Positions 11,511-58,292 of a DNA stretch of 64,000 bases are shown in pieces. The notes beneath the pieces are model-generated. The model ran no database searches, had not been told where the DNA came from, and worked only from the letters and a program-made list of their open reading frames with translations. Every line of letters begins with the position of its first letter. Within the stretch, counting starts at the first letter, position 1. This stretch comes from Bacillus sp. J37 (GTDB lineage: Bacteria > Bacillota > Bacilli > Bacillales > Bacillaceae). The stretch covers positions 186,001 through 250,000 of the forward strand of contig NZ_JAEK01000001.1 of the NCBI RefSeq assembly GCF_000518865.1, written 5' to 3'. Position numbers and translations under genes: made by a program.

Positions 11511-11537
11511 AAAGGTCGTCAAAAAGACGCCCTTTTA
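11511..11537 (-). terminator. Terminator of the slrR-like/sinI-like transcript
   Basis: On the minus strand AAAGGGCGTC pairs with GACGACCTTT around a 5-nt loop with one mismatch, followed by TATC. It overlaps the stop codon of the sinI-like gene. Confidence 0.65.
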
Positions 11538-11675
11538 TTTTTCAGAAGTTCCACCTTGTTGAAGAAATGCTTGAATTTGATCATATGATAATCCGATCTT
11601 TTTTGCTTCTTGTATCAATTCCAACCATTCCCTATCAATTTGATTATCGATATAATTCTTTGAAATTTCAGTCAT
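11535..11675 (-). CDS. SinI/SlrA-like antirepressor (island copy)
   Basis: A 46-residue protein from ATG 11675 to TAA 11535-11537, with AGGAGG at 11685-11690. Residues 14-38 (DREWLELIQEAKKIGLSYDQ...) match the SinI dimerisation domain that binds the C-terminal helices of SinR or SlrR and blocks DNA binding. Its start lies inside the 3' end of the slrR-like gene (8-nt overlap), so the two are co-translated in the order repressor then antirepressor, opposite to canonical sinI-sinR. SlrA versus SinI orthology cannot be decided by eye. It is distinct from the second copy at 54.7 kb. Confidence 0.85.
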   Translation of the reverse strand: MTEISKNYIDNQIDREWLELIQEAKKIGLSYDQIQAFLQQGGTSEK

Positions 11676-12051
11676 TCGGCTTGTCCTCCTGAATTAGGAT
11701 GTTTTGATTTTTTGCATTTTTCCACTTTTGAAATTTCAGGTAATCCCGAAATTCTCTAAAATCATTTTTGCTCATGCCTTCTTCAATGGCTTTATGTAAC
11801 AACTTGCTCCACTCTTCATCAAAAATAAACTCTTTTGAGTAATTAGCTGCAGTAGACGATGATCCTAATAAATCTTCTACCTCTATTTCCAGAGTTAAAG
11901 CAATCTTCTTTAAAAACTGAAGCGAGGGGTTTTTTTGAACATCTCGTTCAATATAACTTAAATAAGATTTTGATACACCTGCCAACTCGGCTAATTCACT
12001 AATAGAATAACCCTTCTCAAGCCTCAACTCCCTTAATCGTTCTCCAACCAT
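11668..12051 (-). CDS. SlrR/SinR-like XRE-family repressor, divergent from epsA
   Basis: A 127-residue regulator with an N-terminal XRE helix-turn-helix (about residues 5-60; ISELAELAGVSKSYLSYIER is the recognition region) and a C-terminal SinI-type dimerisation hook (FIFDEEWSKLLHKAIEEGMSKNDF, about residues 75-98). The HTH recognition helix SKSYLSYIER is nearly that of SinR, so similar operators are expected. In B. subtilis slrR is divergent from epsA. The same geometry here suggests the SlrR orthologue, although it is shorter than B. subtilis SlrR (about 150 residues). Its promoter region carries a GTTCTTA half-site, consistent with autorepression. Confidence 0.85.
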   Translation of the reverse strand: MVGERLRELRLEKGYSISELAELAGVSKSYLSYIERDVQKNPSLQFLKKIALTLEIEVEDLLGSSSTAANYSKEFIFDEEWSKLLHKAIEEGMSKNDFREFRDYLKFQKWKNAKNQNILIQEDKPND

Positions 12052-12462
12052 GCTTTGGTCTCCTTGTCTATATTACAAAAATTTTCCTCACAAGGTTCAT
12101 TATATGAAACATATTGTTCTTAATAAAATAACGTAAACATGTGGAAATAAGAGGTATTTAAAGAAAAAGTGCAATAATCGTTCTTTTTAACGAAAAAATG
12201 ACAAATTTAAGAGTTTTTTTATTTAGGTAATTTATCATATATTTGTAAAGAATGTAATATTCTATATTTTATGTATAGAGTTAATTTATAGTACATTACT
12301 TGTAAAAGATTAAGACTAGAACTTAAAAAAACCTGGAAAAAACGCAAAATCCATTAAAAAGGATTGACTTGTTCTTTATAGTGAACTATCCTAGTTTTAG
12401 AGAACATGATCTCATGATATTTAAATGTGTGTTCTTAATTAAGAAAAGTAGGTGGCGGGTGT
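12052..12462 (+). promoter_or_regulatory. eps operon promoter with SinR-type operators
   Basis: This 411-nt divergent region holds no gene. A promoter for epsA is TTGACT (12364-12369), 17-nt spacer, TATCCT (12387-12392). The spacer is almost filled by the inverted repeat GTTCTTTATAGTGAAC (12371-12386). Further SinR-like sites follow: AGAGAAC at 12399-12405 (exact complement of GTTCTCT) and the palindrome GTTCTTAATTAAGAA at 12431-12445. Upstream are GTTCTTT at 12180-12186 and GTTCTTA at 12116-12122. On the minus strand a TATAAT (12099-12104) could serve the slrR-like gene. The consensus GTTCTYT is from B. subtilis SinR. Binding here is inferred. Confidence 0.75.
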
Positions 12463-13203
12463 ATGTCTAGCTTTCAAAAGCTTGAAGATAGACGTTTAAA
12501 TGAATTTAAGCAGTCAAAAGAAATTGATTTGAAAGAAGTTTTCCTGATTATAAAAAGGTACATATGGATCATTATCCTTATAACAATCCTTTCAACTTCA
12601 GCTGGTGCCTTTTACTCTGTGTCAACTTATAGTCCTTTGTATCAATCAACTGCCAGAATTATTATTGGCGCAGATAGTAATATGATAACAACATTAAAAG
12701 TCATCATTCAGGATTCCACTGTACTGGAAAAAGTTGTGCAGAAGCTAGATCTCCCTTATTCTGCAGAGTCACTTAGCGGGAAAATTAGTGTTGGAAGTAT
12801 AGAGAATTCTCAAGTTGTGACCATCAGTGTTGTTGACTCTAATTCTAAGCAGGCTGCTACGATAGCAAATACTGTTGCTGAAACATATAAAGATGAGATC
12901 CCAGCAATAATGGATTTTAAGGATGTTAGATTACTGTCTGAAGCAAAAGAAATTCCATTCCCGATAAATGAAAATCAAAATAGAACCATTATTATCGCAG
13001 CTATAGGTGGTATAGTTATTGGAATTGGGCTTGCATTTTTACTGGATTCTTTGAATAACAGCATTCGTAAGGAACAGGAAGTAGAAGAATTACTCGGTAT
13101 CCCTGTTCTTGGATCCGTAGATAAAATGAAAAAGAATAACATGCAGAAGAAAAAAGGCAGGAAAACAAGTTTTGAACAGAGGAGTGAGACACTTGGTTCT
13201 TAA
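12463..13203 (+). CDS. epsA: EpsA-type polysaccharide co-polymerase / tyrosine kinase modulator
   Basis: A 246-residue Wzz/CapA-like membrane protein that controls EPS chain length and activates the partner BY-kinase EpsB. Transmembrane helices lie at about residues 32-54 and 174-196, flanking an extracellular coiled domain. The cytoplasmic tail (LDSLNNSIRKEQEVEELLGIP onward) is the usual kinase-activating region. AGGTGGCGGG precedes the ATG. It is the first gene of the eps operon, with epsB starting 11 nt before its stop. Confidence 0.92.
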   Translation: MSSFQKLEDRRLNEFKQSKEIDLKEVFLIIKRYIWIIILITILSTSAGAFYSVSTYSPLYQSTARIIIGADSNMITTLKVIIQDSTVLEKVVQKLDLPYSAESLSGKISVGSIENSQVVTISVVDSNSKQAATIANTVAETYKDEIPAIMDFKDVRLLSEAKEIPFPINENQNRTIIIAAIGGIVIGIGLAFLLDSLNNSIRKEQEVEELLGIPVLGSVDKMKKNNMQKKKGRKTSFEQRSETLGS

Positions 13204-13889: not shown

Positions 13890-14018
13890 ATTTTCGTTTG
13901 TTAGGCGATGTCTCCTTGCCTTTATCAATGGAGGCACTCGGCCATGCTGTGGGTTGAAACAAACCTTAGACGCGAGTCGTCATTAGCATGGTGTGAGGAA
14001 GGGTTAGATGCCCTATTA
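13890..14018 (+). ncRNA. EAR (eps-associated RNA) candidate, processive antitermination element
   Basis: The epsB-epsC intergenic region contains about 130 nt of structured, relatively GC-rich sequence unlike its AT-rich surroundings. Local complementary blocks include GTTTGTTAGGCG near 13896 with AAACAAACC near 13958, and GGCATG/CATGGTG-type segments. In B. subtilis and other Bacillales the EAR RNA sits exactly between epsB and epsC and lets RNA polymerase read through downstream terminators. Position, length and the presence of internal terminators (14019-14076 and 16985-17011) support the call. I could not score it against the Rfam model. Confidence 0.75.
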
Positions 14019-54177: not shown

Positions 54178-54242
54178 CACGAAGATAAATTGTACACAAA
54201 ACAAAAAGCACAACCAGCAGCCATCAAGCCGCCGATCATGCT

Positions 54243-54578
54243 TTATTTATCATTTTCATTCTGTAATCTCCACTTATTAAATTCCAAAAACTCTTTAAAC
54301 TGTTCCTTTGATACACCTGATTTCATTGCATCCTGTACCAGTTTTGTCCATTCTAAATCGAGCTCTTCTGGATCGGTTTCGTTTTGTTCGTTTAGAAGAG
54401 TGTTTACTGATACCCCAAGAACAGATGAGACCTTTTCTAAAAATTGCACAGAAGGATTTGACTGGAGATTTCGCTCAATCGAACTTAGGTAGGATTTTGC
54501 GACTCCTGCTCGTTCTGCTAGTTCAGACAGTGATAGATTTTTTTGTGTGCGATATTTTTTTATTCTCGGACCAATCAC
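54243..54578 (-). CDS. sinR: Biofilm master repressor SinR
   Basis: A 111-residue repressor matching B. subtilis SinR almost throughout: MIGPRIKKYRTQKNLSLSEL, the HTH AERAGVAKSYLSSIERNLQ, NPSVQFLEKVSSVLGVSV, and the C-terminal SinI-binding hook LDLEWTKLVQDAMKSGVSKE. It represses matrix genes by binding GTTCTYT sites, of which many occur in this island. It is read from ATG 54578 on the minus strand, downstream of sinI as in B. subtilis. Confidence 0.95.
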   Translation of the reverse strand: MIGPRIKKYRTQKNLSLSELAERAGVAKSYLSSIERNLQSNPSVQFLEKVSSVLGVSVNTLLNEQNETDPEELDLEWTKLVQDAMKSGVSKEQFKEFLEFNKWRLQNENDK

Positions 54579-54676
54579 GTCAAGTCACCTTCCTTATTGA
54601 AGCTATTATAACATATAAAGAAGGGTTTGTTTTATATGCAGAACACGAAAACAAAAAAATTTACATTCTCTTAATA

Positions 54677-54829
54677 CTATAATGATGATTTTAAAACGGC
54701 ATCTGACTTTTTGGATAAGAACTCTTTAATCTCTTCTACACTGATTCCTAGCTCAAGTGCTTCTAGTATGAGCTCAACCCATTCTTGATCAAGCTGTCCA
54801 TCGTGTGTGATTCCTTCAATTATTCCCAT
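54677..54829 (-). CDS. sinI: SinR antagonist SinI
   Basis: A 50-residue protein from ATG 54829 to TAG 54677-54679 with AGGAGG upstream. LDQEWVELILEALELGISVE is the SinI helix that displaces SinR dimers. It was too short for standard ORF calling. Order sinI-sinR and the neighbouring yqhG match B. subtilis. Its leader carries a c-di-GMP-I riboswitch-like RNA. Confidence 0.92.
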   Translation of the reverse strand: MGIIEGITHDGQLDQEWVELILEALELGISVEEIKEFLSKKSDAVLKSSL

Positions 54830-54863
54830 TATTCTTTTCCTCCTAAAATACTAATCTGTATTT

Positions 54864-54942
54864 CAGGCAGCCCAGCCGTCTTAGTTGTCAACCTGAAGAC
54901 CCGTGACTTTGCGTCCCTACTTTTCAATAGGTTTGCCTTTGT
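54864..54942 (-). ncRNA. Cyclic-di-GMP-I (GEMM-I) riboswitch in the sinI leader
   Basis: On the minus strand the leader reads AAAGGCAAACCTATTGAAAA then GTAGGGACGCAAAGTCACGG, and after GTCTTCAGG it closes with AAGACGGCTGGGCTGCC. This carries every hallmark of the c-di-GMP-I aptamer: GGCAAACC, the GAAA-capped hairpin (CCTAtTGAAAaGTAGG), the invariant GGGACGCAAAG junction, a GTCTT/AAGAC stem, and the 3' GGC(T)GCC partner. It ends about 30 nt before the sinI ribosome binding site. A small AAATAC/GTATTT hairpin lies between it and AGGAGG, suggesting control of translation. Confidence 0.9.
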
Positions 54943-54946
54943 ACTG

Positions 54947-55215
54947 ATTATATTGGCATCAATTGTTAATAGTATATTTCTAAGGTCCTTCGTTTATGTA
55001 TAACTATTTAACTATTGACAATGTCTATTATAAATGAGAGCTATTAACAATGTTTGCAGAACTTTGTCGACGATATAAATTTTTTTCATTTATCTGTAAT
55101 TTTTACAATGAATTTACAAATGTAAGAGTGAAGGATAGTTTTTATAGGTTTTTCCTAGGTGGGATTTACAAAAAATTAATAAAGTTAAGAAATGATAAAA
55201 ATTAATTTTGTCGAA
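54947..55215 (-). promoter_or_regulatory. sinI promoter region with Spo0A-box-like sites
   Basis: TATAAT on the minus strand (54947-54952) lies just upstream of the riboswitch and is a good -10. No consensus -35 is seen at 17 nt, as expected for an activated promoter. TTTGTCGAA at 55207-55215 is a perfect Spo0A-box core and TTTGTCGAC at 55063-55071 matches 8 of 9. In B. subtilis sinI is activated by Spo0A~P. The rest of this 265-nt gap to yqhG shows no gene. Confidence 0.55.
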
Positions 55216-55268
55216 CGAAAATTTCATTTTCATCATTTGTGTTTCTCCTAAGTAATTTGTATCATTAC

Positions 55269-56069
55269 TTAGGAGTTTAAAATTCCTCCGGGAGTCAAAT
55301 AAAAGATCCCGCCATTTTGAATGGATATATGGATTTGTGGTTCATACAACTCTTGTAATGCTTGTTTTTCAACTTCGTAGCATTCGGGTTTTTCTTCAAG
55401 ATCTTCGTAAAAATGATTTAAAAGTTCTAAATCTTTGTTCCATCTTTCCCGTGCTTTGTCAGCCCAGGTATGATCGTGATTGTGTATATCTTGCAGTATG
55501 AATTGTTCAATCCGTTTTAACCCGCTTTGCGGCTTTATGAGAGGGGTCATAGTAAAGCAAAGATCTGGAATTTTTGGAGTTAACTCCAAATTTTCAAGTT
55601 TTTCTTGGAAGTTTTCGACTAGCACTCCACTTACTAAGTGTAACCCGATGGAATAGAGTTGATCTTTTTTCATATCACATTGATAGGAGACCATGATATT
55701 GACTCCGATCCAGGGGTGGAGAGGAACATTTCCTCCATGTGGTTTGACGTACTCAAAAAGTCTGATATAGCTTCCTAACTCTTTTGTCGCTTGAAAAATT
55801 TGATGAAGGCGAGGGGCTCCAAAATGCATAACCTCACCTTTCAGGTCTTTTGGTGCACGATTCTGGTCTGTGATGAGCGTAAGCTTCATTGGATTTGGGA
55901 CCCCGTTTGTTTTTTCAAGGTAGTGCCAGTAAAAAGGTCTGTTCATTAACAGCTTATCCATTTCAATTGTTAGTTGTACGGTTATATATCCTTCTTTGTT
56001 TTCAAGAACTTCACAGGAGTTGGATGTGAAAAAACTTTCTAAAAAATGATGAATTTGCGCTTGCTGCAT
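55269..56069 (-). CDS. yqhG: YqhG family protein
   Basis: A 266-residue cytoplasmic protein conserved in Bacillus next to the YqhH helicase, of unknown function. QIHHFLESFFTSNSCEVLE at the N terminus, VQLTIEMDKLLMNRPFYWHY and the C-terminal QIHISIQNGGIFYLTPGGI are family features. It starts 15 nt after the yqhH stop and is probably co-transcribed with it. The pair precedes sinI as in B. subtilis. Confidence 0.88.
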   Translation of the reverse strand: MQQAQIHHFLESFFTSNSCEVLENKEGYITVQLTIEMDKLLMNRPFYWHYLEKTNGVPNPMKLTLITDQNRAPKDLKGEVMHFGAPRLHQIFQATKELGSYIRLFEYVKPHGGNVPLHPWIGVNIMVSYQCDMKKDQLYSIGLHLVSGVLVENFQEKLENLELTPKIPDLCFTMTPLIKPQSGLKRIEQFILQDIHNHDHTWADKARERWNKDLELLNHFYEDLEEKPECYEVEKQALQELYEPQIHISIQNGGIFYLTPGGILNS

Positions 56070-57770: not shown

Positions 57771-58094
57771 TGTAAAGACAGTCCTTTCGTGATAATAACT
57801 TTTTTGGAATGTTCACGATTTTTCTTGTGATATGTGAAAATATATATATAAATAGAATTTAATTGTTAAAAACCGAACATTTAACTAGAAAATAAATTTA
57901 TTGTTAAGATAAAAAATGATTGTCGAAAGCCTGCTCACATGGTAGGATGTTAGTAAGAAAGTTCATCATTTTCATATCTTTCAGTCAGCTTAACGCTTTC
58001 ATTCGATATGAAATGCAAATGTTTAAAATGTCAAATGTCATAATTCAGGTTTTAGTAGTATAACCAACACAAAAACAAAATATGTGCGGATGAG

Positions 58095-58292
58095 AATAAG
58101 GGGAGAGACTATCGTTTAGTATAGCGCCGAAGGAGCAAACAATTGTGAATCTCTCAGGCAAAAAGACTCTTATTTGACGCGACTCTGGAGAGTGTTTGCG
58201 TGAGTTCACGTAAACTACCAAAGGGGAAAGCCGTATGAGGTGGTAGTATGTCTTTTTTTAGTCATCGTCATCCATAAGGTAAACTTTCAGGT
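58095..58292 (+). ncRNA. Tandem glycine riboswitch upstream of gcvT
   Basis: Two consecutive glycine aptamers are recognisable. The first is GGGAGAGAC near 58101 through GCGCCGAAGGAGCAAAC to CTCTCAGGCAAAAAGAC. The second is GACTCTGGAGAG near 58182 through ACTACCAAAGGGGAAAGCC to TTTCAGGTAAAAAGGACAG. It precedes a terminator and the gcvT-gcvPA-gcvPB operon, as in B. subtilis, where glycine binding turns the operon on. Between 57771 and 58094 nothing else is recognised. Confidence 0.95.

Follow-up and report, generated by a model that had tools for sequence, protein, structure and literature searches.

A predicted class-I c-di-GMP riboswitch as a probable translational ON switch for the antirepressor gene sinI in Bacillus sp. 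J37 and its relatives

The SinI/SinR pair is the textbook matrix decision of Bacillus and has been studied in B. subtilis; SinI binds SinR, and its role in promoting matrix formation is established. The question raised by the present locus is whether the second messenger c-di-GMP enters this decision directly, through an RNA located in front of sinI. The window, which is the whole 64,000-nucleotide stretch of Bacillus sp. J37 DNA analysed, carries a c-di-GMP class-I (GEMM-I) aptamer at 54862-54946 on the minus strand; in a whole-genome Rfam search it was matched by RF01051 with 69.0 bits (gathering 35, E 3.8e-13), which is far outside chance. The original prediction, made from the letters of the sequence, had placed a near-textbook GEMM-I aptamer in the sinI leader at 54864-54942 and had proposed scoring it with the Rfam covariance model. 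The motifs named there are present and the score is the one just given, the Rfam span being slightly longer. This is the only c-di-GMP aptamer of the window at Rfam gathering thresholds, and four class-I matches (RF01051) are found in the 5.3 Mb genome in total. As discussed below, the element is best read, with a probability of roughly 0.8, as a c-di-GMP class-I riboswitch that would act as a translational ON switch for sinI.

In the alignment to RF03167, the window aptamer contains a GAAA-capped P2 as well as P3, with conserved junctions. RF03167 (c-di-GMP-I-GGC) scores 62.5 bits (gathering 59) and thus stays below RF01051; its name is the clan member that cmscan keeps. As we read the printed consensus, GACGC is followed by G in RF03167 (GACGCGAAG) versus A in the window (GACGCAAAG), and because of this A the window aptamer is filed as canonical class I. 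The A is present in 104/104 leaders, 103/104 keep C at the first position of the closing CC, and neither G of GGC varies in alignments of 56 and 54 rows. The c-di-GMP-I-GGC label, considered as a sign of another ligand, was rejected on account of the canonical A and the higher RF01051 score. The archetype of the class-I aptamer is Vc2 of Vibrio cholerae, from which the window case differs in the target gene. The ligand-contact bases G20, A47, and C92 of Vc2 presumably correspond to window bases G54937, A54910, and C54867, which, placed by hand on the sequence, fit such contacts. c-di-GMP would be the expected ligand.

The first gene after the aptamer is sinI (54677-54829, minus strand), coding for an antirepressor of 50 amino acids (PF08671, 49.4 bits). 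It is followed, 98 bases further on and in the same direction, by the matrix repressor gene sinR (54243-54578, minus strand; 111 amino acids, HTH_3 with 62 bits plus a SinI domain with 51.2 bits), and the target genes named in the original prediction are thereby confirmed. Upstream lie a gene for an SNF2-type helicase and yqhG (55269-56069, minus strand; PF11079, 415 bits), a conserved neighbour that served as the survey anchor; this gene order is presumably that of the B. subtilis sin locus. SinI carries the PF08671 domain without an HTH and is encoded beside sinR, as is fitting for the antirepressor. The NCBIfam equivalog NF046031 (SinI) gives 39.8 bits at a cut-off of 80, and the NCBIfam SinI and SlrR models yield sub-cut-off matches only; the names SinI and SinR therefore rest on Pfam domain and synteny. 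Judged by yqhG, Metabacillus niabensis (98%) and M. halosaccharovorans (97%) come closest among named relatives. With nine GGDEF-domain matches in its genome, the organism probably makes c-di-GMP.

SinI-domain matches number seven in the genome. A second SinI-domain gene (46 amino acids), together with a gene for a SinR/SlrR-like HTH protein (127 amino acids), is located at 11535-12051 on the minus strand, divergent from a polysaccharide operon that begins at 12463 with a Wzz-type gene. Directly before the latter, GTTCTTT and an inverted GTTCTCT are found at 12371-12405 (starts 12371 and 12399); GTTCTYT is taken here to be the SinR consensus, so that the pair would resemble a SinR operator. 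Over the whole window, GTTCTYT was observed 41 times versus 24.9 expected. The same operon contains an epsC (EAR) RNA at 13903-14014 on the plus strand (114.2 bits), and a glycine riboswitch precedes a gcvT gene at 58090-58179 on the plus strand (72.7 bits). A further class-I aptamer of the genome (L003:1435-2241) overlaps an ORF without Pfam match; the next ORF there, near a sigma-factor gene, contains a SinI-like stretch (HPEWIELHAFQLGNPIDEIRDFL), again without Pfam match.

How the aptamer might control sinI is suggested by the fold of the segment that links the two. Between G54868 and the start codon, a hairpin CCUGAAAUAC-AGAUUA-GUAUUUUAGG is predicted, in which 54867-54858 pair with 54851-54842 around the loop 54852-54857, at -11.5 kcal/mol, with 200 shuffles averaging -2.7 (sd 1.7); the minimum-energy fold of the full window leader also contains this hairpin. 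The original prediction had pointed to a small AAATAC/GTATTT hairpin next to AGGAGG, which is real, but only the top of the longer CCUGAAAUAC/GUAUUUUAGG structure. The long hairpin covers AGG of the Shine-Dalgarno sequence AGGAGG (54839-54844), the last two bases of which, G54840 and G54839, are able to pair with U54869 and C54870 in the fold. When GCCU is withheld, a hairpin of -4.0 (GAAAUAC/GUAUUUU) is left and AGGAGG is unpaired. The 5′ strand starts with C54867 and C54866, so that the ligand and the Shine-Dalgarno sequence would compete for the same bases: C54867, which pairs with G54842 of the Shine-Dalgarno sequence in the hairpin, is by Vc2 alignment presumably the base pairing with a guanine of c-di-GMP, and C54866 would close P1. 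The 5′ strand of P1, UCAG (54944-54947), has as its partner CUGA (54863-54866), which is common to P1 and the hairpin. In the predicted structures, P1 and the Shine-Dalgarno-covering hairpin are mutually exclusive, as would befit a translational switch working by release of the Shine-Dalgarno sequence.

A transcriptional platform was rejected because no intrinsic terminator was found in 54200-55300; terminator-like sites number zero in that region, and none lies between aptamer and start codon. The translational control suggested in the original prediction is thus supported by the Shine-Dalgarno-covering hairpin, the accessibility of that sequence in the leaders compared, and the lack of a terminator. 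Since a search of 54200-55300 gave no sigma-70-like promoter ahead of the aptamer on the minus strand, the start of the transcript, and hence P1, remains a prediction. It was considered that a TATAAT just upstream of UCAG is the -10 box, in which case the transcript would start inside P1; aligned by eye, however, most relatives lack TATAAT, whereas CAG is conserved. A P1 extension UAAUC/GAUUA in the window leader was not kept, being absent by eye from aligned relatives, whereas CAG/CUG is present.

The following mechanism would be in line with these structures. In the ligand-free state, CUGCCUGAAAUAC at the 3′ end of the aptamer would fold onto GUAUUUUAGGAGG and hide the Shine-Dalgarno sequence; SinI would be scarce and SinR would remain active. 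Upon binding, c-di-GMP would pair with C54867 and P1 (UCAG:CUGA) would close, by which the lower half of the hairpin would be lost and only the AAUAC/GUAUU top could stay. AGGAGG would be released, SinI would be translated and would titrate SinR, and matrix genes, such as those of the polysaccharide operon in the window, would be derepressed. The effect on SinR targets is put forward by analogy with established SinI/SinR biology. Since the ligand-free pairing hides the Shine-Dalgarno sequence and the ligand-bound form frees it, c-di-GMP should raise SinI translation. The original prediction had held that the direction cannot be read from sequence; structure prediction and conservation, compared over 104 leaders, point to ON.

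Of these 104 distinct leaders, yqhG-linked loci supply 37 and the 81 pattern-positives of the order-wide survey described below the other 67; identical leaders were merged, 12 further pattern-positives being identical to one of the 104. Leaders L041-L043 (no start codon), L216 (Ns), and L225 (length) were dropped, start or anchor was set by hand in L092, L243, and L311, and the nine aptamers found by Rfam alone are outside this set. Alignment A3 consists of 54 hand-chosen leaders, namely 48 of the 56 in alignment A2 plus L243, L253, L275, L291, L298, and L333; it omits the eight A2 leaders with a differing platform (L239, L267, L273, L278, L309, L314, L316, and L335). In A3, 85.6% of the P1 cells are paired, and changes on both sides occur in 3/4 pairs (7 cells), five of these cells being C-G to U-A at one pair, and four of those five possibly stemming from one family; the outermost pair forms in 35/54 leaders. 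P1 thus covaries weakly and in part. For P1 and P2 together, 92.0% of cells are paired versus 84.3% in shuffled and 29-50% in slid versions of A3. Covariation is seen for P2 in A3 and for P3 with RNAalifold, whose consensus comprises P2, P3, and the hairpin's lower part, and no P1. The hairpin itself is paired in 96.8% of cells versus 30-51% when slid (A3, with the eight other-platform leaders omitted). Shuffled versions come out practically level (96.7%; 76/500 reach the real value), and base changes affect one side of a pair, such as A-U to G-U, so that the hairpin is supported by conservation more than by covariation.

Individual leaders were also folded. Both terminal aptamer Cs (54867 and 54866 in the window) pair with the Shine-Dalgarno sequence in 100/104 minimum-energy folds, one C does so in 1, and none in 3; with shuffled spacers, both Cs are placed there in 64% of folds. 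The median probability of an unpaired Shine-Dalgarno sequence over the 104 leaders amounts to 0.22 while the 3′ strand of the aptamer is free versus 0.84 once it is locked, and locking raises the value by more than 0.2 in 97/104. The corresponding control medians are 0.31 for a dinucleotide-shuffled spacer, already this low because the conserved GCUGCC is itself an anti-Shine-Dalgarno sequence, and 0.52 when aptamer end and spacer are both shuffled; the free value lies below the spacer-shuffle control in only 87/104 leaders and below the double-shuffle control in 94/104. The motif CCURRAAURC..GUAUUUURGG, with small variation allowed, is present in 86/104 leaders. In single cases outside the register of A3, an equivalent hairpin is formed from different sequence, namely in L244 (CCAAUAAUAC/GUAUAAUUGG, one mismatch), L304 (CCUAAGGC/GCUUUAGG), and L333 (CCUAAAAUA/UAUUUUAGG); in the extra locus L293, the predicted fold places the aptamer end away from the Shine-Dalgarno sequence.

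Some leaders are built differently. A second type of platform was noted in family f2 (L239, L251, L278, and L335), where CCUC or CCUU at the aptamer end faces the Shine-Dalgarno region and the 5′ strand of P1 is of other sequence. L225 (genome G436) has before sinI an aptamer of 236 bases, apparently through an insertion in P3, versus a median of 77; it scores 38.7 bits, and the sequence of the Shine-Dalgarno hairpin is intact.

For the family of the window organism, 80 genomes were surveyed, 79 of them with yqhG, and the region downstream of yqhG was read. With stricter filters, a class-I match occurs anywhere in 59/80 genomes. Outside the genus g2, the aptamer is found at sinI in 34/36 genomes by pattern or leader reading (g1 19/21, g3 7/7, g4 6/6, g5 1/1, g6 1/1), which answers in the affirmative the suggestion of the original prediction to look at other Bacillaceae sinI genes. 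The degenerate aptamer of G079 has its leader in common with L113, where Rfam gives 59.5 bits. G055 is without an aptamer at sinI by pattern, and Rfam found none in L115, a record with the same SinI peptide; in G061, yqhG was not found and the sole class-I aptamer is not beside sinI as judged by our own motif. Among the 80 named yqhG loci, a sinI-type gene lies just downstream in 20 by our own motif (60 are without), and 19 of these 20 carry the aptamer (L113 by Rfam). The 19 carriers belong to Metabacillus, Litchfieldia salsa, a Cytobacillus, and an uncultured Bacillaceae, or are Bacillus records that bear no species name; in Metabacillus fastidiosus (L115), sinI is without aptamer by Rfam.

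The genus g2, with 44 genomes, forms the exception, no aptamer being seen at any yqhG-linked sinI. Its SinI resembles that of B. subtilis, and g2 is presumably the genus of B. subtilis. In G008 and G028 no sinI was seen beside yqhG, so the negative there concerns yqhG only. In detail, 21/44 genomes are without any class-I match, 12/44 are negative by Rfam at the fetched locus, and in 11/44 the listed matches are far from yqhG; one of these 11, G042, which has a second match outside the listing, is without the aptamer pattern at sinI. With a loosened pattern, one match each was obtained in the g2 loci L369 and L047, where yqhG and sinR occupy the other strand; Rfam found nothing at L047. RF01051 also has no match in 14 control genomes, B. 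subtilis among them. The original prediction, which knew of no such element at sinIR in B. subtilis, was therefore right on this point.

Beyond the family, the SinI alignment A1 was matched in 302/397 genomes of the order. Examined were 130 sinI-type genes from 120 genomes and 29 families, these being 130 of the best 150 SinI matches listed; the 20 left out are G098, the family genomes G001, G022, G029, G042, G044, and G072, and the 13 lowest others. Among these matches, the aptamer core was recognized by sequence pattern within 330 bases upstream of 81/130 genes, a fraction that, like those that follow, is not an unbiased rate because the listing is ordered by SinI score. Rfam added nine class-I aptamers among the 49 pattern-negatives (L253, L275, L291, L293, L298, L304, L315, L328, and L333), two of which score best with RF03167, and re-scoring of 40 of the 81 pattern-positives, hand-chosen across families, left all 40 above the class-I gathering threshold. 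At Rfam cut-offs, the totals upstream of sinI among the matches listed are class I in 90/130, class II in 1/130, and none in 39/130. By family, in the genes examined, class I is found in 23/29, class II only in f15, and neither in f9, f22, f25, f44, and f46. All of the SinI proteins scored from surveyed loci (7/7) pass the Pfam cut-off.

Class II recognizes the same ligand, c-di-GMP, through an RNA fold of its own. The one class-II case (L305/L357, genome G381) has the aptamer directly before sinI with 72.8 bits, and sinR on the opposite strand, facing sinI; the fold of this leader is no better than its shuffles, 172/200 of which folded at least as well. As to gene order elsewhere, each of the 20 pattern-positive loci with long flanks has a SinR-like HTH gene downstream in the same orientation. 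Of 11 further long loci, four have sinR in the orientation of sinI (L362, L363, L365, and L366), three showed no sinR by motif (L360, L361, and L367), and four have it on the opposite strand, facing sinI (L357, L358, L359, and L364, of families f15, f47, f28, and f39). In the last four the switch can act on sinI alone, because sinI and sinR are on opposite strands.

This arrangement bears on an alternative in which the switch acts on the whole sinI-sinR operon, both proteins rise, and their ratio hardly moves. The co-directional genes of the window, 98 bases apart, and the 20 long pattern-positive loci with both genes on one strand would allow for it; the sole visible platform, however, covers the Shine-Dalgarno sequence of sinI, no terminator-like site is present, and sinR sits on the other strand in the f47, f28, f39, and f15 loci, which makes such an operon-wide effect improbable. 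Hardly more or less probable is an OFF switch, where the ligand would lower sinI, for example, via mRNA decay or an unseen terminator, and c-di-GMP would favour SinR. Both signs are described, in the text available, for class-I switches of B. thuringiensis, namely "on" at the collagen adhesin and "off" at a chemotaxis-receptor gene. Against this stand the absence of a terminator-like site from 54200-55300 and the predicted ligand-free pairing that hides the Shine-Dalgarno sequence; moreover, the matrix-promoting role of SinI fits c-di-GMP as a sessility signal.

That another cyclic dinucleotide, such as c-AMP-GMP, is the ligand instead of c-di-GMP appears still less credible. A key base change in this aptamer has been reported together with c-AMP-GMP response in the part of PMC9481103 available, and the label kept by cmscan is c-di-GMP-I-GGC. 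The invariant Gs of GGC, the A after GACGC in all 104 leaders, the first C of the closing CC in all but one, and the class-II c-di-GMP aptamer at the same place in one genome argue for c-di-GMP. That the aptamer is a relic or arose by chance and has no role at sinI is the most remote of these readings by far, considering that class-I aptamers with covarying P2 and P3 stand at sinI in 23/29 families. The preferred interpretation thus remains a translational ON switch for sinI with c-di-GMP as the ligand.

The link between a c-di-GMP riboswitch and sinI is not wholly new. It is preceded by an entry "(c-di-GMP)-sinI" in Table 4 of an RNA-seq study on B. methanolicus MGA3 (Irla et al. 2015, PMC4342826), where, as here, a c-di-GMP riboswitch stands before sinI. 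In the portion of that study available, unlike in the present work, it takes up one table row and one clause for one species, and platform, direction, and distribution are not discussed. The Bc2 RNA of Bacillus thuringiensis (PMC4933901) is likewise a c-di-GMP class-I ON switch according to the accessible text, but it employs a terminator/anti-terminator on a collagen adhesin gene, whereas the window has a predicted Shine-Dalgarno-covering hairpin at the gene for a regulator's antagonist. For a SinR-like gene of a Paenibacillus, a class-I riboswitch in antisense has been proposed in a 2023 paper (PMC9943018), as far as available; this is also a computational link of the riboswitch class to a SinR relative, but antisense and on the regulator, the window case being sense and on the antirepressor. 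In the B. thuringiensis transcriptome at raised c-di-GMP, sinI is reportedly up (PMC7793685); (c-di-GMP)-sinI is not listed in the available text of that paper. PMC6143707 and PMC8470499 mention a c-di-GMP riboswitch along with sinI and SinR. As receptors known for c-di-GMP in B. subtilis, PMC7064775 names two, DgrA and YdaK, both of them proteins. In the literature searched, which lies mostly outside subscription journals and was available in part, no account was found of breadth, platform, direction, or a class-II case at sinI.

It appears somewhat more probable than not that SinI-SinR is at root a c-di-GMP effector module. The messenger would directly set SinI translation by riboswitch across most of the order, one lineage or more having rebuilt the switch with class II, and the genus of B. 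subtilis would be the exception that lacks it. An increase in c-di-GMP should then raise SinI protein, with sinI mRNA not increased. If this holds true, c-di-GMP would enter the matrix circuit of many relatives via an RNA at the antirepressor, one step before the matrix genes, and B. subtilis would be a poor guide on c-di-GMP input to SinI/SinR.
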